Source of the DNA: Candidatus Amulumruptor caecigallinarius | Lineage (GTDB): Bacteria > Bacteroidota > Bacteroidia > Bacteroidales > Muribaculaceae | Direction: 5' to 3' | Assembly (NCBI GenBank): GCA_023665575.1 | Contig: JAMPDQ010000008.1 | Span: 1-58,733, forward strand | Length of the DNA stretch: 58,733 nucleotides | In this document: positions 5,387 through 48,120 of the stretch, piece by piece | How the letters are laid out: each line of letters opens with the position of its first letter | Position numbering within the stretch: position 1 is the stretch's first letter | Program-made: the position numbers and the translations under genes | Notes under the pieces: model-generated | The model's database searches: none | What the model saw: the letters and a program-made list of their open reading frames with translations, nothing else | Told to the model about the DNA's origin: nothing

Positions 5387-5399
5387 AAACCTGAATTTT

Positions 5400-6518: not shown

Positions 6519-6520
6519 GC

Positions 6521-7390: not shown

Positions 7391-7396
7391 CAAGGG

Positions 7397-8905: not shown

Positions 8906-8944
8906 AAGGTATCATACTGCAACTTTGCGAGGATTCAGTATAAC

Positions 8945-11134: not shown

Positions 11135-11240
11135 AAAACTGAATTTTAAATTAGCCCGCTTAAGCAGAACGGGACCATATATGCAGTAATTGATTGTAAA
11201 TGATTGTAGTTGGAAATCCGGACGTGACCCGGGATTATAA

Positions 11241-11273
11241 AAAGCAAAGGGGACATGCGTCCCCTTTTGCTTT
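11241..11273 (-). terminator. Terminator of dapL
   Basis: AAAGCAAAGGGGAC and GTCCCCTTTTGCTTT form a long stem with a 4-base loop. On the minus strand it is followed by TTTTTATAAT. The stem overlaps the dapL stop codon. It also carries a T-run on the plus strand and could work in both directions. Confidence 0.85.
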
Positions 11274-34589: not shown

Positions 34590-35828
34590 ATGAATTTCCC
34601 ATTTTATATTGCACAGCGAATCAGTCTGTCGCCTACGGGGCGGAAAAGCTCTCCGGCCATCAAAGTGTCGGTGGCGGCAGTGGCCCTGTCAGTGGCGGTG
34701 ATGGTGACATCCGTGGCCATTGTGCTCGGCTTCAAGCGCGAGATACGCGACAAAGTGTTCGGCTTTAATGCGCACATCTCAATGTATGCTAATCCCGCGG
34801 ATGGAGACAATCTTATCACTCTTACTCCCTCTTTGGAAAACATTCTGAAAGAACAGCCTTTTGTCATCGACTACAGTCTTGAGGCATCTATACCGGCAAT
34901 TCTGAAGACCCCCGACAATTTCAAGGGGGTTTATCTGCGCAGCATGAATGGATCACAGACCCATGATTTCATAGAAAGCAATCTTGAATCAGGCAATATT
35001 CCCGATTACAGCAATCCTGACAACAGCAACAAACTTGTATTATCATCAAAGGCCGCAAATGAGCTGGGGCTGAAAGCGGGTGACAGAATCGACACTTATT
35101 TCATTGCAAATGACGTGCGTGTGCGTCGGCTTGAGGTGGCGGCAATTTATAACACCCACTTCGACTCTTACGACCGTGTGATCATCTATGGCGCCCTCCC
35201 CCTTATCCAGCATATGGGTGGGATATCGGCAAAACAGGGCACAAGTATTCAGATTCACACCGATAATTTTCAAAACATCAATGAATATACAGAGCAGCTT
35301 CACAATGCTCTGATTGAAGCTGTGGCCGATGGCACACTATATCGCTACTATAATCTTGACAACGCGCTTCATCAGGGACAGGGATATTTTCAATGGCTCA
35401 ATCTGCTCGACACGAATGTCGCAGTGGTGCTGACGCTGATGATAATTGTGGCGGCCGCCACGTTGATATCAGGCATGCTGATTCTGATTCTTGACAAGAG
35501 GCGCTTCATAGGTGTGATGCGGGCTTTGGGAACATCCACATCAAAAGTGCGCAAGATATTCATCTGGCTGGCCTTACGGGTGGGGCTTACCGGGATGCTG
35601 GCAGGGAATGCCATAATTCTCACACTTCTGTGGGCTCAAGACAAATGGCACTGGCTGCCGCTTGACCCGGAGGCATATTACATCGACTTTGTGCCGGTGG
35701 AGCTCGACTGTCTAAAGATATGTCTGCTCAATGCCGGCGCACTGGCTGTCATATGGTTAAGTCTGCTACTCCCCTCCCGATTTGCGGCGGGTATTTCACC
35801 GGCCGAAACAATGCGCACCTCTCAATAG
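34590..35828 (+). CDS. LolC/E-like ABC transporter permease (FtsX family)
   Basis: This 412-residue inner-membrane permease has the MacB/FtsX topology: a first helix at about 24-48, a large periplasmic domain, then three C-terminal helices (about 278-300, 325-350 and 378-400). The N-terminal segment FYIAQRISLSP and the C-terminal ISPAETMRTSQ resemble LolC/LolE, which release lipoproteins from the inner membrane with the ATPase LolD. No ATPase gene is adjacent, so the partner is encoded elsewhere. It ends one base before the end of the convergent phospho-signalling island. Confidence 0.88.
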   Translation: MNFPFYIAQRISLSPTGRKSSPAIKVSVAAVALSVAVMVTSVAIVLGFKREIRDKVFGFNAHISMYANPADGDNLITLTPSLENILKEQPFVIDYSLEASIPAILKTPDNFKGVYLRSMNGSQTHDFIESNLESGNIPDYSNPDNSNKLVLSSKAANELGLKAGDRIDTYFIANDVRVRRLEVAAIYNTHFDSYDRVIIYGALPLIQHMGGISAKQGTSIQIHTDNFQNINEYTEQLHNALIEAVADGTLYRYYNLDNALHQGQGYFQWLNLLDTNVAVVLTLMIIVAAATLISGMLILILDKRRFIGVMRALGTSTSKVRKIFIWLALRVGLTGMLAGNAIILTLLWAQDKWHWLPLDPEAYYIDFVPVELDCLKICLLNAGALAVIWLSLLLPSRFAAGISPAETMRTSQ

Positions 35829-36845
35829 CTATTTGCCCTGAGTGCCCAGATGAAACACTTTAATCACTTGCGTGACATCGCCACATCGCAGCACTATCTC
35901 GCCTCTGCGCCCGGTTGTGGCCTCGGGACGATAGGGCACATAGGCATCCGGAGTTATCGTCAGCAAATATTTGCTCATGAATGGATCCTTCTCAAAAGAG
36001 ATTCCCTTAAGCTTATCCTCAGTTATTTTTTTCAAATCAGGCGATGCTTTCTTTTTCAAATTTATGTTTAGAGACAGCCATTCCGGCTTGCTTTCAACAA
36101 ACCAATTGAATCCGTTATCATAGATTGTGTCGGAATTACACATAACTTCGATTTTGGCCGAGCCGCCATCTTTTTTTATCTCAACATAATTCTTTTTAGC
36201 ATAAAGGGCTTCCTGCCTGCCACGCTGTGTCACTACGACCTCACGTTGCAAGTGCCCGCCATTAACATCTATTTTTTGCGTGCGGGTCAGGGTGGAAAAA
36301 TTGGGTTGAACTGAAACATTGAATACGGTTGGCGTGGTTTTCACCACACTGATAAAGGATGTTCCGTCAGATGCTGTGACGGCATTGACGCTCCAGTCAT
36401 CAAAATTTGTGTCTACATTGACAGAGACATTTCGTGAGTGCATGTCAAGATTTAACATCTCGGGATCAACATCAAGCTGCTCTCTCTTCACGGGCTTTAC
36501 ACTAACCACCTCCCCATACTGTTTTGTTTTGCCCGGAGATGACTTCGATGTGCTTTTATGGCTTTTAGACGGTCCTCCATTTATAGCCTTGATATTGGCA
36601 TTGCATTTTTTTATCTCTCTATCACACTTACTTTTGTTGGCTTTCGAATCATAAATAGTCCTTGCCTTGCTGAACAGGGATATCGCCTTGTTCTGAGAGG
36701 CCACAGTCATTGTGTTCTGATACGCTTTTGCCTGTTCGAAAATCTTATTTGCCGACTGAGCGCACACACCCGCGGCATACACAATAATTGCCGCCAACAT
36801 AAATATGATGCGACGGTTGAATACTTTATTTGTAATTTGTTTCAT
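35829..36845 (-). CDS. Exported BACON-like domain protein
   Basis: This is a 338-residue exported protein with an N-terminal hydrophobic signal region (residues 13-30, ending AGVCAQS). Residues 31-90 are helical and charged with two Cys, 95-115 are a Ser/Lys-rich linker, and about 120-335 form two beta-rich repeats resembling BACON domains (for example NVSVNVDTNFDDWSV and a WFVESKPEWLSL stretch). BACON domains are thought to bind carbohydrate or mucin in Bacteroidetes, but here the role is unknown. It is the last gene of the kinase/phosphatase/FHA island and may be a sensor or an effector of it. Confidence 0.65.
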   Translation of the reverse strand: MKQITNKVFNRRIIFMLAAIIVYAAGVCAQSANKIFEQAKAYQNTMTVASQNKAISLFSKARTIYDSKANKSKCDREIKKCNANIKAINGGPSKSHKSTSKSSPGKTKQYGEVVSVKPVKREQLDVDPEMLNLDMHSRNVSVNVDTNFDDWSVNAVTASDGTSFISVVKTTPTVFNVSVQPNFSTLTRTQKIDVNGGHLQREVVVTQRGRQEALYAKKNYVEIKKDGGSAKIEVMCNSDTIYDNGFNWFVESKPEWLSLNINLKKKASPDLKKITEDKLKGISFEKDPFMSKYLLTITPDAYVPYRPEATTGRRGEIVLRCGDVTQVIKVFHLGTQGK

Positions 36846-36875
36846 AAATAATTTGACTTTACTGTCAAACCAATT

Positions 36876-36936
36876 TAAGGCTTCATAAAAAATTTAACAA
36901 GCCTCTCCAATATTGATTTTTTGGAACAGACTCCTA
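36876..36936. mobile_element. MITE-like element 4 (short, about 61 bp)
   Basis: Two dispersed repeat ends lie back to back: TTAAGGCTTCATAAAAAATT on the left and, on the minus strand from the right, TTAGGAGTCTGTTCCAAAAA. They form an imperfect hairpin with almost no interior. The right border is the stop codon of the kinase gene. Confidence 0.6.
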
Positions 36937-38364
36937 ATTTGCCATTTTTTTCTTCAGATTATCTGCACGGGTTCTCTTCTCATTTGCCGCTTCCACAGGA
37001 ATATCGGGAATTGACACAAGATTGTCATAGCTATCCATCAATCTGTCGTATGCAACCTGCATTAGCGAATTCAGTTTGGCTTCTCTCGACTTCAAATCTG
37101 CTGAATTCACACCTTTCTTTTTCAATTCATTCGAAATGCGGCGTGCATTAATCAGAAAATCCTTGGCCTGAATGTATCTTTCATCAAAATTTTCAACATT
37201 TTCAATATCAAATGTTGCAAGACTGTCTGATTTCCGCACACTGGTGTCATATTCTCGCATCAGCGAATCAACAGCATGTTTCCTGTCGGAATCAGACTTT
37301 GCAATCACATCCTCCTTATTGCCTGAAACAAATATTGCGCCTATTACAGCCAATAGCACCAAAAGAGCCAATGCGGCCGCCCCGAAAATCATTCCTTTAT
37401 TCTTACCGGATAACGCAACCTTTGTTTTGGTTCTGTCAAGATTCTCGATTGCCACGCGCATTTCTGCAGCCGATTGATACCGCATATCCTGCCGTTTATC
37501 AGTTGCCTTTTCAATAATTGACCGAAGTCCTTTATTCTGCACATTTTTAAGGGGGAGCTTTTCCTTGACCTGTTTGTCGAGCACATCAAATCGCGTACCC
37601 TCAAATGGCACATTCCCGATAATGCACTGATAGAGCAGAATTCCTATGGCATATATGTCTGTGGTTTGATTCTGATTTTTAAGATCACCAAGAGCAAGTT
37701 CGGGAGAGGCATATTCAGGCTTGCCCATGAACGCGCCGGCCACAGTGAGCGCACGATCATTGGTGGTGAGATTCCGCATTTGTTTGGAGATGCCGAAATC
37801 AATCAGTTTTATATGCTCATCTGAAGTGATGAAAATGTTAGACGGGTCAATATCCCTGTGAATATAGCCGGCATCATGCAGAGCCATCAGCCCGGAGAGC
37901 ACTGATTTGATAACAGCCTTTGCAAAATGATCGGGTTGTTTCTGAAAATCATTCATCAGCCTTCTGGCATACGGGATTTCCTTTCCTCGCACTGTGGTGC
38001 ATTTACCCTGAATAATATCTGACAACGACACGCCGTCAAGCAATTCGCTTACCACATGATAATGTTTCACAATATTCCCATTGCGAGACTCATCGGTTTC
38101 AATAAAGCCCAGCATCTCCACAAGGTTGTCATTTCGCAGATGTATCGAAGCTTCACGTCTGGCGCGTTCAATTGCCTCATCCGGAAGATCCATAAACAAA
38201 AACTTGATTGCAACCGGACGCGACTCACCGGTGCGTGTATTAACGCACTTTCCCTCATAGACCTTGCCCATACCACCCTCACCGATGCAAGGATTGGTGG
38301 AATCCACTTCATAATATATGCCGTTCTCCTTCTCTTCTTTCCCTTGTAATCTTATAATTGCCAT
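36934..38364 (-). CDS. Membrane Ser/Thr protein kinase
   Basis: This is a 476-residue Hanks-type kinase with one membrane helix (325-347) and an outer helical region. Kinase motifs are IGEGGMGKVY (27-36), VAIK with Lys54, HRD (169-171), LIDFG with DFG at 189-191, and PEYASPE near 216. The loop reads HRDIDPSN, with Asp173 replacing the usual Lys of HRDxKPxN. The C-terminal 130 residues are charged and likely coiled coil. A PP2C gene lies upstream and a BACON-like exported protein downstream. It probably phosphorylates Ser/Thr on partners recognised by the island's FHA proteins; this is inference. Confidence 0.9.
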   Translation of the reverse strand: MAIIRLQGKEEKENGIYYEVDSTNPCIGEGGMGKVYEGKCVNTRTGESRPVAIKFLFMDLPDEAIERARREASIHLRNDNLVEMLGFIETDESRNGNIVKHYHVVSELLDGVSLSDIIQGKCTTVRGKEIPYARRLMNDFQKQPDHFAKAVIKSVLSGLMALHDAGYIHRDIDPSNIFITSDEHIKLIDFGISKQMRNLTTNDRALTVAGAFMGKPEYASPELALGDLKNQNQTTDIYAIGILLYQCIIGNVPFEGTRFDVLDKQVKEKLPLKNVQNKGLRSIIEKATDKRQDMRYQSAAEMRVAIENLDRTKTKVALSGKNKGMIFGAAALALLVLLAVIGAIFVSGNKEDVIAKSDSDRKHAVDSLMREYDTSVRKSDSLATFDIENVENFDERYIQAKDFLINARRISNELKKKGVNSADLKSREAKLNSLMQVAYDRLMDSYDNLVSIPDIPVEAANEKRTRADNLKKKMAN

Positions 38365-38394
38365 TTTCTATTACTATTGGTCTCGCATGCATGC

Positions 38395-38431
38395 GCCCCT
38401 AATGTTAAATTTTTATGAAACAGACTTTAAA
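38395..38431 (-). repeat. Solo dispersed repeat end
   Basis: On the minus strand this reads TTAAAGTCTGTTTCATAAAA, then ATTTAACATTAGGGGCGC, which matches the right end of MITE-like element 1 into its GCATGCATG segment. It separates the kinase gene from the PP2C gene. Confidence 0.7.
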
Positions 38432-38433
38432 AA

Positions 38434-39825
38434 TCATTTGATGATTGCATTGATGTCATTTTCCAATTGTCTTATTGCCTCCAGCGACTCTGCCGAAGCA
38501 GTGCAATCCTTGTTATATATACTTATTAATCTTCGCTTTTTCTCACTTTTTTTTACAGACTCGGCAAGATTGCTGATTTGTGCCTGCAGACCGGGAGTTG
38601 CATGTCTGCCCGCATTCATAATGTCTTCCACAAGTCTGTCATATATTCGCTCCCGCTCATTGCGCACTTTATGCGGATTTGTATCAGCACCTGTCTTGTT
38701 ATATCCCCTCAGCATCTCCAATTTTGAGAGGGCACTGCCCAGATATTCCACATCCTTCCGGGCTTCCGTCCCTTTTGAGACATCGGATTTCGCATTTTCA
38801 TAATTTTTGCTTGCCTCTCCGGTAATTTCCGCAAATTTTTTCTTTTGCGCAGCAATGCGGCTCTCGGCTTTTTGATTGGGCTGAACGCTTGCTCCGGGAT
38901 TGTCGATTGGAAAACACAACCATAAACCAACGGTAGCTGCAATTACGATCACTACCGCCACACATATCCAGCCGTATAAAGGAATGTGCGGAGTCGGTTT
39001 GTTTCTGTTATCCTTATGATTCCCGGCGGTTTTATCCAAAATGTGACGCGCAGACCCGCTGCAAGGAATATCAACCACGGCCAACGTCAGATTGTCATGA
39101 CCTCCCCCGGCTGACTCGCCAAGATTATCGATGTGGTCTGTCACCTCCCTCACAAGTTGTGAAGGCGTATCGTCAGAACACAGCAACACCACCAGCTGAG
39201 GCTCGGAGACAGCCCCCCAAACGCCATCGGACATTAGCGCGAAGCGGTCACCGGGCAGATATTTCAACTCGTCAATTTCAGGCTCAACAGATTCTCCCAC
39301 CCCTATTGCACGCGTGATTACATTGGAATAACGCGAATTGCGAGCCTCTTCCGCGGTTATTGTGCCTCTGCGCACCATTTCTCCCACATAGGAATGGTCA
39401 GCTGTATGAAACACACCCTTACCCTTTCGGAGTTGATAACACCTGCTGTCACCGACATGCATGACACAAGCATGTCCGTCGCGACACAGCAGCACGGCCA
39501 CACAGGTTGTGCCCATTCCCCTTAGTGCCGGATTCTCACGCACTGCGTCCAGCACAGACTCATTTGCGGCATGACAAGCATTTTCCAAAGCTGCCACCGG
39601 CGACATGTGAAGGGGGACACCGGACACAGAATCAATAATGGCGCTGACGGCAATGGTGGAAGCTGTTTTGCCCGCAGGTCCCCCACCCATGCCATCACAC
39701 ACAACCACAAGCAAGCCAAGAGGAGTTTCCGCCATGCCATAATGGTCCTGGTTTTCCTCGCGTCCTCCCCTTTTTGATGCAATGGATGCGCTTATGCCGT
39801 AACTGTCTGAAATTGCATCCATCAA
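38434..39825 (-). CDS. Membrane-anchored PP2C-type protein phosphatase A
   Basis: This is a 463-residue PPM/PP2C Ser/Thr phosphatase. Metal-binding acids are visible in ENQDHYG (Asp27), VVCDGMGGG (Asp44), LMSDGVWG (Asp200) and GGHDNLT (Asp244). A single transmembrane helix (283-306) follows the catalytic domain, and the remaining 155 residues are charged and partly helical, the same layout as the paired kinase. It overlaps the upstream lipoprotein gene by four bases and precedes the kinase gene, so phosphatase and kinase probably oppose each other at the inner membrane. Confidence 0.9.
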   Translation of the reverse strand: MMDAISDSYGISASIASKRGGREENQDHYGMAETPLGLLVVVCDGMGGGPAGKTASTIAVSAIIDSVSGVPLHMSPVAALENACHAANESVLDAVRENPALRGMGTTCVAVLLCRDGHACVMHVGDSRCYQLRKGKGVFHTADHSYVGEMVRRGTITAEEARNSRYSNVITRAIGVGESVEPEIDELKYLPGDRFALMSDGVWGAVSEPQLVVLLCSDDTPSQLVREVTDHIDNLGESAGGGHDNLTLAVVDIPCSGSARHILDKTAGNHKDNRNKPTPHIPLYGWICVAVVIVIAATVGLWLCFPIDNPGASVQPNQKAESRIAAQKKKFAEITGEASKNYENAKSDVSKGTEARKDVEYLGSALSKLEMLRGYNKTGADTNPHKVRNERERIYDRLVEDIMNAGRHATPGLQAQISNLAESVKKSEKKRRLISIYNKDCTASAESLEAIRQLENDINAIIK

Positions 39826-40232
39826 TGCAGTTCTTCCGGTTTAATGGAAATTTTTACAGAATCACTTCCGCACACATACACATAATCCACGGTTGCATTC
39901 GCTGTCACCACATTATTGAAGAAATTTCTTGGCAACAAATTTGTCCGAAGTGCATTGGCGGTTTGCACGTGAAGTGTCTCGGCATTTATTGACTTCATGT
40001 ATTCGGGCGACACCTCAACATAAAGGGTTAACACCTTATCCGCATATTTCACAGAAGAAATTCTATTGTTGTTTTTCAATTGTATCGGCAGCGACAAAGA
40101 GTCTAAACCGGCGATAATGCGTTCGTCGGCCCGGTCGGCAGGCGAATTCTTGCACGATGAAACAATTCCTATTGAAATAAGCAGGATTGCGGCAAGGGCT
40201 GCAAACTTTAGTTTTCCCGTATGCATAATCAT
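39822..40232 (-). CDS. Small lipoprotein of the phospho-signalling island
   Basis: This is a 136-residue protein with a lipoprotein signal: a hydrophobic stretch AALAAILLISIGIVSS then Cys27 (lipobox VSSC). The mature part is about 110 residues and has no family that I recognise. The start could be the first Met or Met3. It overlaps both neighbours by four bases (exported protein upstream, PP2C downstream), so translation of the three genes is coupled. That points to a role tied to the phosphatase, perhaps as an envelope ligand or sensor partner. Confidence 0.8.
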   Translation of the reverse strand: MIMHTGKLKFAALAAILLISIGIVSSCKNSPADRADERIIAGLDSLSLPIQLKNNNRISSVKYADKVLTLYVEVSPEYMKSINAETLHVQTANALRTNLLPRNFFNNVVTANATVDYVYVCGSDSVKISIKPEELH

Positions 40233-41200
40233 AATAAAGTAAATGTTGTAGAACCTAACTTGCGATCATCCTCATAGAATTCGATTCTATATTCACCATT
40301 TTTCCATAAAGATCCGTTAGTTGTTCCGAATTTGTTGAGTTCATAAATCTCCGGTTTGCCTGTTTTCTTGACATCAATAGTTGTTATTGTCGTGAAATCA
40401 GAATCGCGTGACGGCACAAGAAGACGTCCTTCGGGTGTGAATATTTTAACACCCACCTTGAATGTTCCTTTCTTTTTGCTCGCCAGTTCCACTCTTGGCT
40501 GGATATATTGCGCGTCACTTTTTCTTAAAGCCACATCATAATCCGAAATCACTTTGTCGAGAGCATCCACGTTTCTGATGCTCACATGATTGTAAGCCAG
40601 ATTCTGACCTGAAGCTCTTGTGTCGATACTCCTCTGCGACACAACTACTTTTGACGTGTCATTAACCATCCAATACTTGTGAATTGAATCATTATAAGCC
40701 TTTGCACGCCCCATGTTGCGATGCATTGATTTGCTGATATTCTCCATAGACGACAAAATCTTGTCGAACACTTTGGAATATTGTGCTGCATCAGACGCAT
40801 AAACCGGGAATTCAAACAACATTCTGCTTCCTTTCACATAAGCTTTATAATCATTATCAGCGGTAATAAATTCAGCCGCAATTCGTGCATTCTCAAGCTT
40901 ACGGCTTATCCTGGCCTTATTTCCTTTTTCTTTATCTTCAATCAGCTTAAAGGGGTTTCTGTGCAATGTAAAAAGCATTGAAGAGGCATTCCCGTCAAAT
41001 GTGATCCAATATAACACATCGCGATGAAGAAAATTCAAGCTGTTGTCTTCCTTTTTAACCTTTGTGGCAATACCTTTTGAGTTAAGATATTTTGCCATCG
41101 TATTATTGGCTATCACCTCGGCAGACGACTGAGCATTGGCCCGGCCTGCCGACAATAAGGCCACAACAGCCAACAAGAATAAAATTCTGATATTTTTCAT
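40229..41200 (-). CDS. Exported protein of unknown function
   Basis: This is a 323-residue protein with a classical signal peptide (MKNIRILFLLAVVALLSAG, cleavage likely after ANA near residue 23). The N-terminal half (25-170) has mixed alpha-beta patterns and the C-terminal quarter (about 230-323) looks like a beta sandwich. I recognise no family. It starts a translationally coupled set with the lipoprotein and PP2C phosphatase A. Upstream lies a motif shared with another gene of the island (41204-41219), preceded by a dispersed repeat. Confidence 0.8.
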   Translation of the reverse strand: MKNIRILFLLAVVALLSAGRANAQSSAEVIANNTMAKYLNSKGIATKVKKEDNSLNFLHRDVLYWITFDGNASSMLFTLHRNPFKLIEDKEKGNKARISRKLENARIAAEFITADNDYKAYVKGSRMLFEFPVYASDAAQYSKVFDKILSSMENISKSMHRNMGRAKAYNDSIHKYWMVNDTSKVVVSQRSIDTRASGQNLAYNHVSIRNVDALDKVISDYDVALRKSDAQYIQPRVELASKKKGTFKVGVKIFTPEGRLLVPSRDSDFTTITTIDVKKTGKPEIYELNKFGTTNGSLWKNGEYRIEFYEDDRKLGSTTFTLL

Positions 41201-41203
41201 TGT

Positions 41204-41219
41204 AAGTAGGATGTATAAA
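41204..41219 (-). promoter_or_regulatory. Shared leader motif, copy 1
   Basis: On the minus strand this reads TTTATACATCCTACTT, ending 3 bases before the start codon of the exported protein gene. A second copy with one change (CTTACTT) precedes the gene at 44773. It is a possible promoter or leader element for separate transcripts within the island. Confidence 0.4.
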
Positions 41220-41231
41220 TTAATTATTGTA

Positions 41232-41250
41232 TTAGAGTCTGTTTTAAAAG
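41232..41250 (+). repeat. Solo dispersed repeat end
   Basis: ATTAGAGTCTGTTTTAAAA lies between the kinase-FHA-DUF805 gene and the exported protein gene, at a likely transcript boundary. Confidence 0.6.
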
Positions 41251-41267
41251 AATATCATACCGCTCAA

Positions 41268-42857
41268 TCATGCCACCGGCGCACCATATTTATTGGGATT
41301 TTTGCTGCCCCGGGCAACAAGTTTAATTATCATGACAACCAGAAAATATAATCCGGCAACAGGAATCAGGCACAACAGAAATGTGCTCCAACCCTTTCCT
41401 ACATCATGCAGCCGTCGAATCAACACGGCTAGCTGGGGCAAAAACACCAGCAGTGAATAAAAAAGAATTATCCACATCATCCATTGTGCCATACCGGTGA
41501 CAAGATACACGAACGTAAGAATCATCGACATCAGATAATTGAACAGTGTGAACCACCAGAATTCCGACCTTGAGGCCCTGCCTGAGAACACCACATATTT
41601 GACAAGACACTCCTTTATTGCTCCGAAGAAATTTTCCGAAGGATCGCGGCGGATTAAATCTTGTGGCAGTGTTGTGTTATCATACTCCGTTTTCCGTTTG
41701 TCACGACTCTTTTTGCCAAGCCTGAGGAGCACATTCTCAACTTCAGCCATATCCAATCTGCACGACGGATCATCCGCAAGATATATGTTCGGACGCTTCC
41801 CGCATGCTATTCGGATGGAATCTCCATGACGCAGTTTCACACCATCTATAGTTGTGCCGTTGCTGCTGCTGTCGGTATAGACAAACACAATTTCCCCATT
41901 CTCCTCAATCATCGTAATATCTGCATGATGCCTGCTCACCCGGTTATGGTTGCGCCCCACACATATATCACAATTTTCTCTGCCGATGCTGATTTTATCG
42001 GCGCCTCCGTCCGAATGTGTATTCAGCTGTGTTCCACCGGGGAGAACACGCATCAGCTGGTCTGCAAATTCTCGGCAAGACTGGAATCGTCTCATCATAT
42101 TCTTATCGACAGAATGATCCAGAACATCTTGCACCACCGAGGGTATTCCCCTTACATGCGTAGCCATTCTTGGAAAAGGCTTCGTCATAATATCCTTTTC
42201 CATCTCGAAACTCGTCATCGCGCTGAAGGCATGTTTTCCCGTAATCATAAAGAACAAGACACATCCCAGAGAATACACATCCGTACGATGGTCTATGTCG
42301 TAGCCTTGCGCCTGCTCCGGGCTCATATAGCCATCAGTGCCGATAACCGTGCCGATAACAGTATGCTGAGAATTACGTGAATTTCCTGATATGTCTTTAG
42401 CTACTCCAAAATCAAGAAGACAAATGTCGCCGTTTGGCCGCAACATTATATTTCCGGGCTTTATATCCCTGTGAACTATTCCCTGTTCATGAACATCCTG
42501 CATGGTGTTCAGAAGCTTCAGCATATACCCCGCAGCTTCAGTCCAGGGTATGGGACCGTTTTTCAGAACATATTGTTCCACATTCAAGCCCTCAACAAGC
42601 TCCATTACAATATAGAGATTGCCATTAAGCTCAAAATGGTCATAAACTTTAACGACATTGGGATTATGAAGCTTCTTTAGGAAATTAATTTCACTGATTA
42701 TGCGGTGTCTGTATTCTTCGTTTTGCACAAATGTTGGCAGAATCTCCTTTATTGCGACGGGTGTTCCATCAAGGGGAGAATATCCTTTAAGCACACGGCC
42801 CATTCCACCGGAGCCTATCGGAGCATCCTCAACGTCATATTTTCCAACTTTTTTCAT
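41268..42857 (-). CDS. Ser/Thr kinase fused to FHA and DUF805 domains
   Basis: This is a 529-residue three-part protein. The kinase domain (about 1-270) is complete: IGSGGMGRV (14-22), Lys37, HRDIKPGN (129-136) and DFG (149-151). An FHA domain (about 286-362) follows with IGR (291-293), SRHH (308-311) and SSNGT (331-335). A DUF805 membrane domain (about 410-526) ends the protein, with FSGRASRSEFWW, RRLHDVGKGW and about four helices. The usual DUF805 proteins are small stand-alone membrane proteins, so this fusion is unusual. It would be a membrane kinase that binds phosphothreonine partners. It sits beside PP2C phosphatase B. Confidence 0.9.
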   Translation of the reverse strand: MKKVGKYDVEDAPIGSGGMGRVLKGYSPLDGTPVAIKEILPTFVQNEEYRHRIISEINFLKKLHNPNVVKVYDHFELNGNLYIVMELVEGLNVEQYVLKNGPIPWTEAAGYMLKLLNTMQDVHEQGIVHRDIKPGNIMLRPNGDICLLDFGVAKDISGNSRNSQHTVIGTVIGTDGYMSPEQAQGYDIDHRTDVYSLGCVLFFMITGKHAFSAMTSFEMEKDIMTKPFPRMATHVRGIPSVVQDVLDHSVDKNMMRRFQSCREFADQLMRVLPGGTQLNTHSDGGADKISIGRENCDICVGRNHNRVSRHHADITMIEENGEIVFVYTDSSSNGTTIDGVKLRHGDSIRIACGKRPNIYLADDPSCRLDMAEVENVLLRLGKKSRDKRKTEYDNTTLPQDLIRRDPSENFFGAIKECLVKYVVFSGRASRSEFWWFTLFNYLMSMILTFVYLVTGMAQWMMWIILFYSLLVFLPQLAVLIRRLHDVGKGWSTFLLCLIPVAGLYFLVVMIIKLVARGSKNPNKYGAPVA

Positions 42858-42881
42858 AAGAACCGGTTAAATCAATTGAAA

Positions 42882-44078
42882 TCAGCGCTGTTTATCCACA
42901 GCTTCTTCCAATTTCTTAGAGGCATCTTCCGCAGGTTGCTTTCCCTGCACACTCTTCTTCAGAATTGCATTTTCTGCAGATTCAGTTTTTTCGCTTACAT
43001 TCTTTTTTTCTCCCGGGACACCCAGTTTTTTCTCCACTTTTTCACGGTTCACCCTTTGAGATGAAGTTTTGGCTGAGGTCGGCTTGCCAACTGCATTTGC
43101 GGCGGGGGCAGTCTCTTGTCGCACGGGATTATTCGGTTTGGTTCCGACAGTCGGTTTGCGCTCCCGAACTTCAGTATTGTGTATTGCATCATTAGCGGGC
43201 TCGTTGTTTTTCGGCATCAAAAACAAAATAACAAACACAGCTGCAAACAAAACAGCAGCAACTGTAATTATCATTGACAACCTGTTGTTTCGGGCTATCC
43301 TTTTCCCTTTTTCAGGCGTTACAATCCCGGAGTCATCACGACCGCCAAATTGTATCAGTTGCACTGTGATATTATCCAATCCGCCTTTTTCATTTGCAAT
43401 CTCAATGAGCTTGTCGGCACGCTGCTTAAGCGATAAAGATGTGTCAGACACTGTTTCGGAGATTGTGGAGTCATTCACCATGCCCGACAATCCGTCGGAA
43501 CACAAAAGCAACACACTGTCTGCAGATGGATTTATCGGAGCATCACAAATCAGAGGAGGAGTCATTTCTCGAATACCCAATGCATTCAGAATCTCATTTT
43601 TCCGGGGATGATGCTCCGCCTCTTTCGGAGTGATTTCACCGGAATCAACAAGTTGCTGCACATAAGATTGATCATGCGATATTTGGCGGATTTTACCGTC
43701 GCGTATGTAATATATGCGGCTGTCGCCAATCCAGCCATAATACACAAGTCCGTCTTTGATAATAGCCATCACGCAAGTTGCTCCCATGCCTTCGAATGCG
43801 GGATTTTGAGAGGCCTTGTGAAGGATGCCCTGATTCGCCGCCATACATGCGCGTGTAATTGCCTCGCCCGGTGTGGAGAACTCGTTGTTGGTGAGAATAT
43901 CAGCGATAATTTCACACGCCAGCTTGCTTGCAACATCACCGGCGGCCTGACCACCCATGCCGTCGCACACAGCCACCACGCGTCCATTGGGAGAATCAAA
44001 AGTCACCATGCTGTCTTCATTTATCTTGCGATTTCTGCCCACATGCGTGCTATTGGCTACTATAAAGTTTTGATTCAT
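42882..44078 (-). CDS. Membrane-anchored PP2C-type protein phosphatase B
   Basis: This is a 398-residue PPM/PP2C phosphatase. Catalytic acids are seen in NEDS (Asp22), VCDGMGGQ (Asp39), LCSDGLSG (Asp195) and GLDNITV (Asp235). One transmembrane helix follows (267-288), and the C-terminal 110 residues are rich in Lys, Glu, Pro and Ala, probably disordered. It lies between a zinc-ribbon FHA gene and the kinase-FHA-DUF805 gene with 23-24 base gaps, so the three form one transcript and the pair likely balance each other. Confidence 0.9.
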   Translation of the reverse strand: MNQNFIVANSTHVGRNRKINEDSMVTFDSPNGRVVAVCDGMGGQAAGDVASKLACEIIADILTNNEFSTPGEAITRACMAANQGILHKASQNPAFEGMGATCVMAIIKDGLVYYGWIGDSRIYYIRDGKIRQISHDQSYVQQLVDSGEITPKEAEHHPRKNEILNALGIREMTPPLICDAPINPSADSVLLLCSDGLSGMVNDSTISETVSDTSLSLKQRADKLIEIANEKGGLDNITVQLIQFGGRDDSGIVTPEKGKRIARNNRLSMIITVAAVLFAAVFVILFLMPKNNEPANDAIHNTEVRERKPTVGTKPNNPVRQETAPAANAVGKPTSAKTSSQRVNREKVEKKLGVPGEKKNVSEKTESAENAILKKSVQGKQPAEDASKKLEEAVDKQR

Positions 44079-44101
44079 ATAGAAATATTTTAGTCTGCGT
44101 T

Positions 44102-44773
44102 TCAGCTTAGAGAGGGAACTGCAATAAATATGAAAATAGTGCTGCCCACACGGATTATGTCATAATTCTGAAGTTCGCCTTCATCCAGGAGTTCTTTATT
44201 TATGAATGTGCCGTTGCTCGATTGTTCGTCACGGAATTTAAACTTGCCATCCACATTTCTGTAAAGTATAGACATGTGTCTGCCGCTCATTTGAGGATCA
44301 TCGGGCACTGAAATGTCACACGATTCATCCCTGCCTACGAAATTACGTCCCTCATAAATATTAAAGGCCTTGCCATTCGGATCGCGGTTATATGTCACAA
44401 GAAATCCCACCAGTCGGCGAGATGGCATGATTCCATGCGGTCCGCTATGCCCCACATGCCGAATCATGGTGTGATTTGCCTGTTGCGCCGGCGCCGTTTG
44501 CGCCTGCTGTCGTTGGTCGGCTACGGCGTTTGCAATCGCTGCATGCGCAAAAGCCTTTGGCCGGTTCACTACATTTGAGTTCGCAATGTGAGTGTGGAGA
44601 TTGGATGATGCCGCCTGCCGTGGCTCAGCTCCGGGAGTCTGCTCCTGAAACAACTGTGTTTTGGGTTCGGACACCGGCTTCCCGCCGGCAACTCCCCTCG
44701 GACAAAGGGGGCACTCATCTCCATAGATGGCCGGATCATATACATGCCCTTTGGGGCAGGTTTTCTTTTGCAT
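44102..44773 (-). CDS. FHA protein with N-terminal zinc-ribbon-like motif
   Basis: This is a 223-residue soluble protein. The N-terminal 25 residues contain CPKGH (6-10) and CPLC (21-24), a small metal-binding motif. A Gln/Ala-rich linker (30-115) leads to a complete FHA domain (120-220) with GRDESC (147-152), SGRH (163-166) and SSNGT (185-189), the residues that bind phosphothreonine. It is the first gene of a presumed transcript with PP2C B and the FHA-fused kinase, and probably docks their phosphorylated forms. The leader carries the shared motif at 44788-44803. Confidence 0.88.
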   Translation of the reverse strand: MQKKTCPKGHVYDPAIYGDECPLCPRGVAGGKPVSEPKTQLFQEQTPGAEPRQAASSNLHTHIANSNVVNRPKAFAHAAIANAVADQRQQAQTAPAQQANHTMIRHVGHSGPHGIMPSRRLVGFLVTYNRDPNGKAFNIYEGRNFVGRDESCDISVPDDPQMSGRHMSILYRNVDGKFKFRDEQSSNGTFINKELLDEGELQNYDIIRVGSTIFIFIAVPSLS

Positions 44774-44787
44774 TTTAATTTACAAGT

Positions 44788-44803
44788 AAGTAAGATGTAT
44801 AAA
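44788..44803 (-). promoter_or_regulatory. Shared leader motif, copy 2
   Basis: On the minus strand this reads TTTATACATCTTACTT, 14 bases upstream of the zinc-ribbon FHA gene start. It matches 41204-41219 with one change. It lies just past a hairpin, so it may mark a new transcript start. Confidence 0.4.
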
Positions 44804-44819
44804 ATAGAGGATTTAAATT

Positions 44820-44850
44820 CATACCCTGCCGGAAATTCCGGAAGGGTATG
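44820..44850 (-). terminator. Hairpin between two island genes
   Basis: CATACCCT and AGGGTATG flank CCGGAAATTCCGG, giving a strong stem 20 bases after the end of the EF-hand-like gene. The downstream tract on the minus strand (AATTTAAATCC) is only weakly U-rich, so termination may be partial. Confidence 0.55.
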
Positions 44851-44870
44851 GATGATTTCATGTTGTGTAA

Positions 44871-45836
44871 TCAGGCGTCTATCACGCTGTCATCAAACGT
44901 TTCGCCGTCATAAGCAAGGCTGTCACCCTGTTCGGAGTAGCCATAATCAATAATTTCCCCATCCGGCGTGTCGGCCTCAGCATAATATTCTCCATATTCT
45001 CCGCCATTATTGTCGGATGCAAAGTCGTCATCAGCATCTCTGGCATCTACCTGCGCCATAAGGCTTTCCGGGTTTCTCTCAGAATCCGACACATATTGTT
45101 CGCCACCTCTTTCTGCATAATAATGGTCGCTCAAATCGTCATCATTATAATAATGCTCATGATGGTCCCCCAAAAAAGTATCTTTTTCACCTTCATGGTG
45201 AGTCTGATTTACAGCCAAATGTATGGGATTTCCTTCAAGCCCTGTCGGATAAACGGGATTTACCTCTCCTTCATCGTTTATTTCAACAGCAGCTATGCTT
45301 TTACCCTGCCCCATTGCGTAAGACACGTTGTCGGAATATACAATCTCATTTTCCTCATACACACCATTGCCATTCATGTCAATGGCAACAACATCTCCAC
45401 GTCCGTTCAAGTCAGTGTCAAACACTGCGAATGATTTACCATCCACTGTGCCCGAATCCACAGTTGCCACAATATCGCCATCCTCGTCAAACACCAATGT
45501 GGTTTTATCCACCGTCACATCCGCATCGCTTTGCGCAGTTTGCGGGGAGGCTTGTCCGCCGGCATTAGTTCCGGCGTTGTTGGAAACACTTCCGGAAGAT
45601 TGGGGAGTGGTATTAACCGAAACATTATCGGCCGAGGCATCAGCGGCAGCAACAAAATCCGCCTCTGTAAGTTCATCACCATTCTCATCATGCAGCATGT
45701 GAGTCGCACCATACGCGACAGTTGCACCCGCACCGAGCACAGCTGCACCGGCTATGGCCGCACGTTTGAGATTCTTGCTCTTGTTGACTGCAGCGTCTTC
45801 CATTGCGTCAAGCTGATAGTCGTTTACTTCTGCCAT
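44871..45836 (-). CDS. Membrane protein with EF-hand-like loops
   Basis: This is a 321-residue very acidic protein with one small-residue-rich transmembrane helix (25-44). Residues 65-105 are a Ser/Asn/Ala/Gln linker. Two calcium-type loops follow: DTDLNGRGD (140-148) and DMNGNGVYEENE (153-164), the second fitting the EF-hand spacing D-x-N-x-N-G-x-x-E-x-x-E. The last 100 residues are rich in Asp, Glu, Tyr and His. I recognise no family. It sits within the FHA gene run and could be a Ca2+-sensitive or scaffold component. The overall composition resembles disordered exported proteins. Confidence 0.75.
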   Translation of the reverse strand: MAEVNDYQLDAMEDAAVNKSKNLKRAAIAGAAVLGAGATVAYGATHMLHDENGDELTEADFVAAADASADNVSVNTTPQSSGSVSNNAGTNAGGQASPQTAQSDADVTVDKTTLVFDEDGDIVATVDSGTVDGKSFAVFDTDLNGRGDVVAIDMNGNGVYEENEIVYSDNVSYAMGQGKSIAAVEINDEGEVNPVYPTGLEGNPIHLAVNQTHHEGEKDTFLGDHHEHYYNDDDLSDHYYAERGGEQYVSDSERNPESLMAQVDARDADDDFASDNNGGEYGEYYAEADTPDGEIIDYGYSEQGDSLAYDGETFDDSVIDA

Positions 45837-45897
45837 ATTTTCAGATTTTTACACCGGTTTATAAAATTAATCCGGAATTGTTATTATAAGTGTCTGT

Positions 45898-46503
45898 TTA
45901 TCTTCTGTATTTGCGATAAGCCTCTTCAAGTTCAGCCTTCTTCAACGCCTCCCTTGCTTCCCGCTCCTCTTTAATCCGCATGTCCTCAATGCTTGCGGAA
46001 TTTTTCTTTTTCTTATTTACAGTGTGTCTTCCTTTCCCCGCTCTTGCATTAGCTCCGTTGCCACGTATTTTGCCATCAAGAGATGTGGAATCTTTTTTAG
46101 CCGTCGTATCCATCTTCATCACGCAATTCTGCTCAACCTTTTTGACAGAGGGAGAATGCGAATTCCTCATATACAGAATCACACCCGCAATCAGACCCAC
46201 TGCAATCAACAGTGCGGCTGAAAGGAGAAAAATCCTTGTCTTTTTATATGGATCCTTAACCTTGCTCCAATCAAGATCCTCAATATGTGCGAAATTCACA
46301 TTATCACCGCGCTTCACGGGCACACCCTGCGGCTTATGCACCTTTTTGCCGTTCACATATGTGCCATTTTCGCCTACATCGTAAATTTCCATTTTGCCCG
46401 TGAAGCCAACTTTGATTACGGCCTGCTTAAGGCTCACCGTCTCGTTGCCTTCACTTAACCTCACATCGCATCCTTTGCCCCTGCCTATTGTGATTAGTTT
46501 CAT
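45898..46503 (-). CDS. Membrane FHA-like protein with degenerate binding site
   Basis: This is a 201-residue protein that starts directly with an FHA-like domain (2-85): IGRGKGCDV (6-14) is intact. The usual SRxH position reads SLKQA (24-28) and SxNGT reads GENGT (44-48), so the phosphothreonine contact is altered. A transmembrane helix (90-112) follows, then a Lys/Arg/Glu-rich tail with a likely coiled coil. It may act as a scaffold and not as a phospho-binder. It lies between an FHA gene upstream and the EF-hand-like gene downstream on the same strand. Confidence 0.82.
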   Translation of the reverse strand: MKLITIGRGKGCDVRLSEGNETVSLKQAVIKVGFTGKMEIYDVGENGTYVNGKKVHKPQGVPVKRGDNVNFAHIEDLDWSKVKDPYKKTRIFLLSAALLIAVGLIAGVILYMRNSHSPSVKKVEQNCVMKMDTTAKKDSTSLDGKIRGNGANARAGKGRHTVNKKKKNSASIEDMRIKEEREAREALKKAELEEAYRKYRR

Positions 46504-46530
46504 AGCTGATTAATTTTCAAGCATAGCATT

Positions 46531-47226
46531 TTATTTATCAAGGGTCTTGTTTCTGAAATCATTCGCCTTATTGCGATATGTCCTGCCATAGAAAGTTGTT
46601 TCATATTCTTCGCCGACATTGGTCTGACTCTCCGGAATCCGCACATTTTCCACTGTTATTTCCGACTTGTCGTTCTCAAGCCGTATGATATCCGGTTCGG
46701 AATCACGCGAATCCTCAGGAACAGATACAAAATTTCTTGCCGTACACATTCCATAATCAACAAAATTCAACGGAATGAAAAGCAGTCTGTATGCATTGCC
46801 AATCCTGATTATGTCATAAGCCTTTATGGAAGTTTTTTCAGTGACCTCCTCTTCATTGACGTATGTGCCATTGTTCGATTCATTGTCAGAGATACTCATG
46901 ACAATTTGAAAATCGCCACTGCCAATCCGAATGTGTCTGAGCAGGAGCACCGCATGCTGTGGGTTGACAGACATCTCTCTCAGCACCACATCTGACTTAC
47001 AATCACTCCCAATCACATTGCGCCCCAAATACAGGGGAAAAATTTCTCCACTCTGATTACGCGACACAGTAATCAGCACGCCGGCAAGCCGGTGCATGTC
47101 ATCTTGCTCCTGCAGACTTGCGAGGGCATCCAAGCCGTCATTTCCGACAATTCCGCAATGAGCACCCGCAATATGTATTACTGTCTTGCTCAATTTCCCT
47201 TGTTTTATATCCTTTTCAGAAGCCAA
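46531..47226 (-). CDS. FHA domain protein
   Basis: This is a 231-residue soluble protein. Its FHA domain spans about residues 45-155 with LGRN (67-70), NPQHA (88-92) where the usual SRxH is expected, and SNNGT (117-121). The His and the NGT loop are kept. N- and C-terminal extensions of 45 and 75 residues are charged and match nothing I know. It follows the zinc-ribbon FHA membrane protein gene after 114 bases. Confidence 0.85.
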   Translation of the reverse strand: MASEKDIKQGKLSKTVIHIAGAHCGIVGNDGLDALASLQEQDDMHRLAGVLITVSRNQSGEIFPLYLGRNVIGSDCKSDVVLREMSVNPQHAVLLLRHIRIGSGDFQIVMSISDNESNNGTYVNEEEVTEKTSIKAYDIIRIGNAYRLLFIPLNFVDYGMCTARNFVSVPEDSRDSEPDIIRLENDKSEITVENVRIPESQTNVGEEYETTFYGRTYRNKANDFRNKTLDK

Positions 47227-47340
47227 TATTCTTTCTCAATTCAGTCTTTGCAACCATTGGATTGCTGCCTCTTTGAGCTACAAAATCGCCTCAAAAATCA
47301 CTTGCAAATGCTGATAAAAAATTTGTTTGGACAACTTCAT

Positions 47341-48120
47341 TTATTGCCTTTCGTAAAATTCAGTCTTGCATCTCGGGCACATCCTCTCGGCAAGTATATT
47401 CTCATATATCTTTCCTCTGAATGAAACCTTGCATTCCGGACAGACATATTTTATGGAATAATCCTTATCGTTGGCAGTGCGGCGTTCTATGATTTTCTTA
47501 TTATACCTGTTTATTATCAGCAGAAGTATGGCCATCAGAATTATGCCACCCACAATTCCCGCAACCTTTGCCAAAGTTTCCGTCTCTTCACTCCCGCTTA
47601 GCACCTTCGGCAGGAAAGTCGGTGCGGAGCCGGCAAGCAAAGTCACAATAATGGAGCAGCTTCTGAGGCCATTAATCATTCCGCTTTTCGATTCGAGATT
47701 CATTCTTTGCTTATTATACTCTTCAGATATTCTGCGAAGATGCGATATGTCAACTCTCTTTATTTTCTTGGTTGGAGCCGGATCTCGGCGCAAAGAGGGA
47801 GCCTGAGCGGGCGCATGGTTGTTCACCTGAGGGGCTATCCGTGTTTTTGGAGACTCGGGTAAAAGTCTGCGCACATGAAATCTGGTGTCGGGACCGAGCT
47901 GTATCATTGTGTCGAGCGTAACCGAATATGTTTGATTCGGATATAACCTCACGAATTCCCGGCCGTTATATATGTATGTGCCGTTGGTGGATTTATTGTC
48001 TACTATTTCCATTTTGCCCGATTCATCCACAAACAAATATGCATGCAGTCTGCTTACATTGGGATCTGCTATGGTGAATGGCTGATTTCCGTTCTTTCCG
48101 ATTATTATCTGTTGTTTCAT
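47341..48120 (-). CDS. Membrane FHA protein with C-terminal zinc ribbon
   Basis: This is a 259-residue protein with an N-terminal FHA domain (3-86) with IIGK (7-9 region), SRLH (23-26) and STNGT (44-48), all binding residues present. A Pro-rich and basic linker (90-135) follows, then two hydrophobic segments (about 152-172 and 184-204), and last a zinc ribbon CPEC (227-230) with CPRC (248-251). It is the first gene of the island on the minus strand, facing htpG across a 468-base AT-rich spacer that should hold the promoter. Confidence 0.85.
   Translation of the reverse strand: MKQQIIIGKNGNQPFTIADPNVSRLHAYLFVDESGKMEIVDNKSTNGTYIYNGREFVRLYPNQTYSVTLDTMIQLGPDTRFHVRRLLPESPKTRIAPQVNNHAPAQAPSLRRDPAPTKKIKRVDISHLRRISEEYNKQRMNLESKSGMINGLRSCSIIVTLLAGSAPTFLPKVLSGSEETETLAKVAGIVGGIILMAILLLIINRYNKKIIERRTANDKDYSIKYVCPECKVSFRGKIYENILAERMCPRCKTEFYERQ

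Follow-up and report, generated by a model that had tools for sequence, protein, structure and literature searches.

Gene content of the island

The window analysed here is a stretch of 58,733 nucleotides from the gut bacterium Candidatus Amulumruptor caecigallinarius (contig JAMPDQ010000008.1). An earlier note, made from the sequence alone, had described in it a block of twelve genes on one strand, and the boundaries given there are exact (48120 down to 35829, minus strand; Table 1). All twelve ORFs (g1 to g12) are intact, with intergenic gaps of -4 to 114 bp. The parts list of the note was borne out by Pfam and by a hydropathy scan. There are two Hanks-type kinases (Pkinase matches in g7 and g11), two single-helix PP2C phosphatases (g6 and g10) and five FHA domains, all above the Pfam cut-off. 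One of these belongs to kinase g7, which has DUF805 at its C-terminus, and four are in separate proteins (g1, g2, g3, and g5). Four further proteins (g4, g8, g9, and g12) are mostly exported. In the genome sequence (1.89 Mb, 94% complete), all five FHA matches and two of the three kinase matches fall into the island, and thus its clustering is beyond chance.

Table 1. Features of the island and of its flanks in the window.
Feature	Position	Strand	Length	Description
lolE-like FtsX permease	34590..35828	+		left flank of the island
g12	35829..36845	-	338 aa	exported (hydrophobic N-terminus); BACON-like domain; final gene of the island
g11	36934..38364	-	476 aa	Hanks kinase (Pfam), one helix after the kinase domain, extracytoplasmic tail
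g10	38434..39825	-	463 aa	PP2C (Pfam), one helix (~296), extracytoplasmic tail; TTG start as listed
g9	39822..40232	-	136 aa	lipoprotein (lipobox by eye, hydrophobic N-terminus); 4-bp overlaps with both g8 and g10
g8	40229..41200	-	323 aa	exported (hydrophobic N-terminus); YbjN/TY-Chap-like N-terminal domain (weak), C-terminal domain weakly similar to DUF6941
g7	41268..42857	-	529 aa	kinase of Hanks type with a canonical FHA and a DUF805 membrane domain (Pfam)
g6	42882..44078	-	398 aa	PP2C (Pfam), one helix (~278), extracytoplasmic tail
g5	44102..44773	-	223 aa	zinc ribbon (CPxGHxYD...CPLCP), linker with threonine motifs, canonical FHA at the C-terminus
g4	44871..45836	-	321 aa	short N-terminus, then a stretch rich in small residues, acidic loops of calcium type and a tail of low complexity
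g3	45898..46503	-	201 aa	FHA (Pfam), then one membrane helix (~residue 100), basic tail
g2	46531..47226	-	231 aa	FHA (Pfam) with degenerate phospho-binding site; no clear helix; listed with a TTG start
g1-g2 gap	47227..47340	-	114 bp	occupied in relatives by the caspase gene and by a gene for a zinc-ribbon/FHA protein
g1	47341..48120	-	259 aa	FHA (Pfam), membrane helices (one or two), zinc ribbon (CPxC...CPxC) at the C-terminus
htpG	48589..50646	+		right flank of the island; neighbour of lolE in relatives

Phosphatase g6 passes the NCBIfam model for Stp1/IreP (241.6 bits, cut-off 230) and g10 falls below it (188.9 bits). Neither kinase reaches the PASTA kinase model of the Stk/Stp pair (235 bits for g7 and 159.3 bits for g11, cut-off 450). 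Sequence identity to the four orthologues compared is 45-62% for g7 and 60-64% for g11. In g3, Gln takes the place of the His that is usual at the FHA site, both in the window and in two aligned orthologues. The canonical phospho-binding residues are missing from g2 as well as from g3, which counts against the clustering model proposed below. For g5, FhaB/FipA and OdhI are among the best of the sub-threshold NCBIfam matches.

The description of g4 as an EF-hand-like membrane protein could be followed in its first part only. The acidic loops (DxDxNG and DxNxNGxYxxxE) are largely kept among 8 sequences, so that the motif reading is fair, while the membrane assignment is uncertain: the small-residue-rich stretch, which by eye follows the first ~25 residues, is a possible helix that stays below the threshold of the hydropathy scan. 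The protein has no Pfam match at or above cut-off and none in NCBIfam. Strong matches (E < 1e-70) occur in 6 of 397 family genomes, 44 at E <= 0.001, and some of its weaker relatives lie next to caspases in other islands. The lipoprotein and the two exported proteins of the earlier note are g9, in which the lipobox Cys is invariant in alignments, and g8 and g12. The TY-Chap1 model matches 5 of 17 g8 homologues at E <= 0.1 (best 8.6e-06, still below cut-off); g8 of the window is itself without a match and reaches no Pfam cut-off, and a search against solved structures gave one chance match (E 0.25). Comparison to PHROGs yielded two weak matches, the function of which is unknown. For g12, the BACON score is 24.8 (cut-off 25).

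Genomic position

The island separates two genes which we take to be lolE and htpG (HSP90 family). In other genomes the lolE-htpG junction is empty, and three of these have the island elsewhere, on different contigs. The block forms a genuine unit, which is lacking from the lolE-htpG junction of the relatives. Although its position differs, the island tree and the lolE tree agree for the five genomes compared, and this weakens the case for a recent mobile insertion.

A caspase gene is missing from the window island

Four close relatives share the gene order of the island (L060, L061, L062, and L151, the latter continued by L011 on a second contig). In these, g1 is followed by a caspase gene, a further FHA gene, and then g2, while g1 and g2 are direct neighbours in the window. 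The caspase is present in 4 of the 4 close relatives that have the 5′ end covered. Orthologues of g1 (41-53% identity) are located immediately 5′ of it, and in other islands the FHA proteins encoded 5′ of a caspase are likewise similar to g1, at 26-30% identity. Outside of the triad islands described below, L030 and L035 have a g1-family FHA protein with no caspase seen.

The four caspases share the SGHG and Cys motifs, begin with a signal-like N-terminus and are apparently secreted. The Cys pattern is missing in 10 of the 20 caspases listed, none of which is one of these four. Concerning topology, the caspase looks exported and the FHA and kinase domains cytosolic, which makes the proposed link between them tentative.

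A genome search (94% complete genome) revealed no caspase match in this strain, and there is no protease family among the Pfam matches of the twelve island genes. When five caspases were compared to the window by tblastn, the single match near the g1-g2 gap was the 3′ end of g1 in another frame. In a tree based on g4-g8, the window pairs with L060 (100%) and three caspase-bearing islands represent the next clade. Because of this placement, loss of the caspase gene and of one FHA gene is the simplest reading; a tree of g6 only puts the window with the outgroup, with weak support (0.63). The window island is a protease-less derivative of a protease-linked family and not a full member. The statement that no toxin gene is nearby holds for this strain, probably because the caspase gene was lost, but not for the relatives, which carry a caspase with a signal-like N-terminus between g1 and g2.

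The island might be a decaying remnant which has been without function since the caspase was lost. This would account for the two missing genes and for the longer window branch (0.63 vs 0.33 for L060). However, all 12 reading frames are open and, as judged by eye, the kinases and phosphatases have their catalytic motifs. In addition, the excess of changes over L060 (87 vs 37 in the island) differs little from that of the adjacent lolE (19 vs 10), so that constraint seems to persist. We consider decay to be improbable. Relaxed selection after caspase loss is likewise not supported, the rate excess of the island being about that of lolE.

A conserved triad associated with proteases

Clusters of kinases, PP2C phosphatases and FHA proteins are common in the host's family within the Bacteroidales. 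A triad consisting of the zinc-ribbon FHA protein g5, a membrane PP2C and a kinase-FHA protein is found in this order at 34 of 35 loci, including the window (44773-41268). In the exception, L072, the same triad genes follow after a 353-bp gap. The distance matrices of the triad proteins correlate (r = 0.66, 0.76, and 0.88), and none of 2000 permutations was as high.

Wherever the 5′ side of another triad island is covered (34 of 34), a protease gene is present. It codes for an FHA-tethered trypsin in 27 cases, a caspase in four, an M6 protease in two and a C10 protease in one. For M6 and C10 the link is less certain, as these genes may lie next to the three islands by chance. The FHA-trypsin occurs in 27 of 27 type C loci and has a helix between FHA and trypsin; the trypsin residues H, D, and S are conserved in 28 of 28 aligned proteins, L068 included. 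On the other side of the island, endonuclease-I genes follow g12 in three of the four relatives that could be read past it (1-3 genes in L011, L046, and L048). The island had been considered self-contained, and this is not supported: the relatives have a caspase and an extra FHA gene as well as endonuclease-I genes after g12, and the triad recurs with other proteases. Among the papers listed in literature searches there was no description of such an operon, and we apparently deal with an undescribed Bacteroidales family.

The island might also be a homeostasis relay that tunes envelope synthesis or transport, comparable to actinobacterial PknB/PstP/FHA, with the caspase of the relatives as a side branch. 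The island survives without a caspase, all its frames being open and constraint seeming to persist at a rate excess near that of lolE. Furthermore, many envelope proteins take part in the relay, and g6 exceeds the Stp1/IreP cut-off. Against this stand the strong g4 matches in just 6 of 397 family genomes, which is rare for a housekeeping function, and the protease gene found with all 34 covered islands. On balance, such a role seems rather unlikely.

Threonine motifs in the linker of g5

The motif T[QHKR][ILVFM] occurs 52 times in the 35 g5 linkers, compared to 7.1 expected. In the 24 loci which had been left out when the motif was spotted, there are 27 copies (expected 4.9; linker only, last FHA strand excluded), with 17 of 24 loci positive and none of 1000 shuffles as high. 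As the loci are related and not independent, the shuffle tests overstate significance. The motif is absent from 8 of the 35 linkers; the window has two copies and its closest relatives have three or four. A serine version is not enriched in the held-out linkers (1 vs 4.1 expected), and no comparable excess of the motif was found in PP2C and kinase linkers. When FHA tails are excluded, counts are 2 in the FHA-trypsin proteins (expected 2.0) and 5 in other FHA proteins (expected 3.2). In extracytoplasmic segments of the kinases, both the threonine version (66 vs 49.6) and the serine version (73 vs 54.7) are in excess, which is thus not threonine-specific.

A linker rich in threonine motifs is as expected of a scaffold with multiple FHA-binding sites, and such binding is predicted for g5, the proposed scaffold of the island. 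In the FHA switches GarA and OdhI, a linker threonine precedes one FHA domain. This arrangement is shared by g5, which differs by its zinc ribbon, its several motifs and its location in a membrane operon; no metabolic target is known for it.

Relation to known systems

Two types of kinase/PP2C/FHA systems, type VI secretion control and TerY-P triads, had to be compared. For type VI secretion, TssC (PF05943) was searched in 16 island-bearing genomes including this one (ten of them >=90% complete, type B genomes outside of the set) and was found in none, with a positive E. coli control. The best island score for the Fha/TagH-type FHA protein (TIGR03354) is 28.9 bits for g5, cut-off 120.25. A type VI control module is therefore rejected for the window island, TssC being absent. 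There is no VWA/TerY gene in the window island; the genome has two VWA matches, both located on contig C10. Three island genomes have TerY-like VWA genes (G001, G017, and G412), always on other contigs, including a TerY-like cluster with PP2C and kinase on contig C15 of G001. A TerY-P triad, which has kinase and PP2C together in common with the island, is rejected as well.

A displaced control module of either type would share the parts list of kinase, PP2C and FHA, and the lipoprotein and exported protein are reminiscent of TagQ/TagR. In addition, the type B island L026 has kinase, PP2C and FHA next to genes for an ABC ATPase, an FtsX permease and a VWA protein similar to TssR. In view of the TssC and TerY results, this origin is largely refuted for the window island and we regard it as very improbable. 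The earlier note had reported no secretion and no VWA/TerY gene nearby, which now extends to TssC in the whole genome, and had proposed synteny in genomes without secretion genes as a check of a distinct envelope module. The gene order conserved in four relatives and the absence of TssC from all 16 genomes agree with this view.

In the type VI threonine phosphorylation pathway (TagQRST-PpkA-PppA-Fha), PpkA phosphorylates Fha and forms condensates (PMC12607579). That pathway and the island have in common a membrane kinase, a PP2C, an FHA target, a lipoprotein and an exported partner. The island differs by its several FHA proteins, the zinc-ribbon scaffold, the protease gene in relatives and the lack of TssC in the genome. 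In mycobacterial Rv1747-PknF-PstP, condensates are promoted by the kinase and reversed by the phosphatase, and Rv1747 has FHA domains and a disordered linker (PMC9312465). FHA domains with a linker, which carries the motif array, are also found here, where a comparable condensation would be predicted. Rv1747, however, is an ABC transporter, while the proposed scaffold of the island is a small FHA protein with a zinc ribbon, encoded in an operon that is linked to proteases.

Pairs of EACC1 and a caspase have been described as conflict systems associated with the membrane (PMC7159879). Common features are a caspase adjoined by a protein whose membrane helix is rich in small residues, and the nearest NCBIfam caspase model (EACC1-associated caspase NF047832 for the L062 caspase, 61.4 bits, below the cut-off of 140). 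In the islands, relay genes replace EACC1, which has been described from actinobacteria and some proteobacteria. The island family may be a conflict system, in which attack on the envelope by a phage or competitor triggers the relay and releases protease and nucleases, with the window copy being disarmed. Patchy presence, differing positions between genomes, different proteases within one family, the endonuclease-I genes adjoining g12 and the similarity of the L062 caspase would fit. On the other hand, the window island is without a vWA gene and Pfam scans of its genes found no MoxR or STAND, no recent transfer is needed as island and lolE trees agree (five genomes), and the PADLOC matches are to widely shared kinase and PP2C domains. 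A defence system from PADLOC is rejected for the latter reason. A role in conflict is conceivable, if doubtful.

A proposed protease-coupled phospho-relay

We consider it likely, with a probability of about two in three, that the island represents the signalling portion of a membrane Ser/Thr phospho-relay of Bacteroidales which is coupled to a protease, here without the caspase, and which operates by phospho-threonine clustering as predicted from domains and motifs. Envelope state would be sensed by the extracytoplasmic tails of g6, g10, and g11 together with g8, g9, g12, and g4, which would set the phosphorylation balance. The kinases g7 and g11 would phosphorylate threonines of the g5 linker, and the phosphatases g6 and g10 would remove the phosphates. 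Around phosphorylated g5, a cluster may form at the inner membrane that takes in g1, g7, g5 itself, and perhaps g2 and g3; by analogy, it would be comparable to the FHA clustering of Rv1747 or type VI Fha. In the relatives, this cluster might control, across the membrane, the exported caspase and perhaps secreted nucleases. This strain would have kept the relay with an output that is no longer the caspase.

More tentatively, the family could represent a so far unreported trans-envelope phospho-threonine relay with interchangeable proteases, in which one conserved triad would drive caspases that are exported, trypsins that are tethered to the membrane, and perhaps C10/M6 proteases and secreted nucleases. 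It might be an inside-out device for cell death or conflict, with the window copy disarmed or repurposed.

The island family provides a defined core (g5-PP2C-kinase/FHA) and the specific prediction that multi-site threonine phosphorylation of g5 recruits FHA partners. It would link bacterial phospho-signalling to caspases or trypsins outside of the cytosol, and the window is a natural experiment, the same relay being present with and without caspase in related genomes. Stand-alone caspases also have FHA matches on their 5′ side, at 505-778 bp, in 12 of 149 family genomes, as read from the match lists.

Organization of the island

The island consists of 12 open frames on the minus strand, from 48120 down to 35829, with a spacing of -4 to 114 bp and in a window free of N. 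It is likely that g1-g12 are transcribed as one operon. The Bacteroidetes -7 box has four matches on the island strand between 35 and 49 kb, and the sole intergenic one (48350) is 5′ of g1. Generic scans for promoter-like (37 vs 27.9 expected) and terminator-like sites (11 vs 13.3 expected) were near chance. In the window genome (1.89 Mb, 94% complete), all five FHA matches and two of the three kinase matches are inside the island, and no caspase match was found.

Genes of the island in transcription order, and neighbouring genes; export and lipoprotein assignments are sequence predictions
Gene	Position	Strand	Product or domains
g1	47341..48120	minus	FHA-helix-zinc ribbon
g2		minus	FHA
g3		minus	FHA-helix
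g4		minus	acidic-loop protein
g5		minus	zinc ribbon-linker-FHA
g6		minus	PP2C-helix
g7		minus	kinase-FHA-DUF805
g8		minus	predicted exported protein
g9		minus	predicted lipoprotein
g10		minus	PP2C-helix
g11		minus	kinase-helix
g12	35829..36845	minus	predicted exported protein, BACON-like
htpG	48589..50646	plus
lolE-like	34590..35828	plus	FtsX permease
PF04228	33532..34404	minus	neutral zinc metallopeptidase

A conserved triad

FHA matches occur in 59 of the 149 genomes of the Muribaculaceae set. They often occur several to a stretch (5 or 6 in G063 and in G041), together with kinase and PP2C genes. When the species-genome collection was searched with a g5 profile (alignment A4), 37 loci were found, whose family we presume from record titles. 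These name Bacteroidales in 32 cases, the others being L063, L092, L075, L076 and L096. The last three are FHA/kinase loci in records titled Clostridium, Clostridia and Lachnospiraceae, with the triad (g5, g6, g7) in L075 and L076. In length and place, the contig of L075 agrees with C11 of G156, a genome assigned to the family of the window; at least this title therefore looks wrong.

The order g5, PP2C, kinase-FHA is found for 34 of 35 g5 homologues (window, L060-L066, L069-L095); in the remaining one, L072, PP2C and kinase-FHA come after a 353-bp gap. Pairwise distance matrices of the triad proteins are correlated (r 0.66-0.88; 0 of 2000 permutations as high), and g4, g8 and g9 are also common to the type A islands, the close relatives of the window island. 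The objection raised in the earlier note, that the genes might rarely be found together, therefore does not hold.

At E < 1e-70, g4 has matches in 6 of the 397 family genomes (G000, G001, G017, G292, G333, G412), and at E <= 0.001 in 44. Full-length g8 occurs in 10 (E < 1e-57; 79 at E <= 0.001), namely these six, G270 (6-kb contig) and G062, G149 and G194, which have islands of another type. In L054, the C-terminal domain of g8 is repeated four times (8795-10579) and twice (10576-11523), beside a lone kinase.

Relation to known systems

A type VI control module was rejected for this island, as TssC was found in none of 16 island genomes, all of types other than B (control positive). A TerY-P triad was likewise set aside: the VWA genes of the window genome are located outside the island, and the TerY-like clusters of G001, G017 and G412 are on contigs other than the island's. 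g7 and g11 score below the PASTA-kinase cut-off; g6 scores above that of Stp1/IreP.

TerY-like VWA genes occur in L147 (~2134-8733, G001 contig C15), L148 and L149, with PP2C and kinase alongside in G001; the three genomes also hold a caspase-bearing island, on other contigs. The type B island L026 (5007-19442) combines genes for kinase, PP2C and FHA proteins with those for a trypsin fused to two FHA domains, a VWA protein resembling TssR, an ABC ATPase and an FtsX permease, a set that recalls TagS/TagT. Similar loci by phmmer are L016, L017, L022, L025 and L038.

Among 5.39 million open papers, which mostly exclude subscription ones, no comparable operon was found, and none of the broader matches listed fitted. 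Combining FHA, PP2C or Bacteroidetes with caspase or trypsin retrieved only Kaur et al. 2020 (PMC7159879), passages of which describe conflict systems with caspases or trypsins, whose cores are vWA-MoxR, GAP1 or EACC1; passages on bacterial PP2Cs in PMC12088040 describe nothing like the island. The component parts are already known, and their combination appears to be new.

Threonine motifs in the g5 linker

In g5, the linker that joins the zinc ribbon to the FHA domain carries T[QHKR][ILVFM] motifs (KTQL and HTHI in the window). In shuffle tests, which ignore the kinship of loci, the 35 linkers alone contain 52 motifs versus 7.1 +- 2.6 (0 of 1000 shuffles as high), with at least one in 27, and the Ser version is not enriched (2 vs 5.5). 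The motif had been spotted in 11 sequences. The 24 other loci, held out, contain 27 motifs versus 4.9 +- 2.2 (0 of 1000 shuffles), at least one in 17 linkers, and no excess of Ser, Ala, Asn or Gly versions. There is no excess in kinase or PP2C linkers, nor in other FHA proteins after FHA tails are dropped.

Phosphothreonine is the ligand recognised by FHA domains (PMC6213207). In the FHA sites of g5 and g7, the GR, S, H and NG residues are kept in aligned orthologues; g3 has Gln in place of His, and the g2 site is degenerate.

A caspase gene missing between g1 and g2

In the relatives L060, L061, L062 and L151, a caspase gene and a zinc-ribbon/FHA gene sit 5′ of g2. In L010, which is the L060 locus as found in G001, the caspase belongs to Pfam C14; in L062 it matches an NCBIfam caspase model below cut-off, and a purpose-built HMM recognises it in all four. 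All four keep the SGHG and N[AS]CHSG motifs, with N-termini that look signal-like. When the L061 caspase frame was compared to the window (tblastn, E 1.7e-5), the hit was g1 DNA in another reading frame. Orthologues of g1 (41-53% identity) are in all four directly 5′ of, and overlapping, the called caspase frame; thus the relatives have the order g1-caspase-FHA-g2, the window g1-g2.

In a concatenated g4-g8 tree (1,711 columns, outgroup L064-L066), the window and L060 are sisters (100%), and the next clade is L061, L062 and L151 (100%), all with caspase. Among single-gene trees only that of g6 differs, weakly (0.63). The simplest account is a single loss in the lineage of the window.

Proteases and other genes in related islands

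Besides the window, 34 triad islands are covered on their 5′ side (L069-L095, L060-L062, L151, L066, L063, L065); the sequences of L064 and L067 end before that side, and L068 and L096 are without triad. An FHA-helix-trypsin protein occurs in 27 of 27 type C islands, mostly with two FHA domains, and its H, D and S residues are conserved in 28 of 28 aligned proteins, L068 included. Peptidase genes are also found 5′ of g4, of type C10 directly adjacent in L066, and of type M6 as second gene in L065 and third in L063; these could be chance neighbours. Type C loci also encode kinases of ~1,270 aa (L083 14058-17852 and equivalents), most with one helix and with weak RHS-repeat matches in the long part beyond it, which are likely to be sensors.

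Islands of type E pair a stand-alone caspase with an FHA match 505-778 bp away, on its 5′ side and on the same strand; this is the case in at least 12 of 149 genomes (G041, G065, G069, G087, G091, G095, G097, G119, G140, G144, G181, G185). The FHA protein is of the g1 family in all ten loci annotated (all except G069 and G097), and weak g4 relatives adjoin several of the caspases. By contrast, no caspase was tagged in L030 or L035, although both have an FHA protein of the g1 family. All 20 caspases inspected have [YF][SC]GHG and, by eye, an N-terminal hydrophobic stretch; 10 match the Cys pattern. In L162, a gene for a small LytTR DNA-binding protein (10255-10698) precedes the FHA-caspase pair, and genes of similar size are in the same place at other type E loci, so that type E islands may have a regulator of their own. 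After g12, endonuclease-I genes were identified by Pfam in L011 and by HMM in L046 and L048; L010 has none there, and tblastn gave no match within the window.

Proposed mechanism

Hanks-type kinases and PP2Cs act on Ser/Thr, and FHA domains bind phosphothreonine. The observed parts, gene order, conservation, motif array and missing caspase are most likely to be read as follows. The kinases g7 and g11 would phosphorylate g5, and g6 and g10 would reverse this. FHA proteins would gather on g5 in a cluster at the membrane, with signal input via extracytoplasmic tails and the exported proteins. In relatives, this cluster would control a putatively exported protease. Such clustering is reported in passages on Rv1747/PknF/PstP (PMC9312465) and on PpkA-Fha (PMC12607579).

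Position between lolE and htpG

Among 20 lolE neighbourhoods from the genus, the next called gene is htpG in ten (L129, L130, L133, L134, L136, L137, L139, L144-L146), five of which have it in the same direction as the window (L137, L139, L144-L146). A single frame intervenes in L132 and L135, htpG is more distant in L128, and it is not visible in seven stretches (L127, L131, L138, L140-L143; lolE itself is uncalled in L140). None of the 20 has tagged island genes there. G412, G292 and G017 (L144-L146) have the island on contigs other than lolE's. Island and lolE trees are congruent for the five genomes compared, so relocation, or old inheritance with losses, is as possible as transfer.

The metallopeptidase gene lies between gcvT and lolE, which adjoin without it in relatives such as L139, L141, L144 and L145. 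It looks like a second gain beside the island, and its product could in principle substitute for the lost protease.
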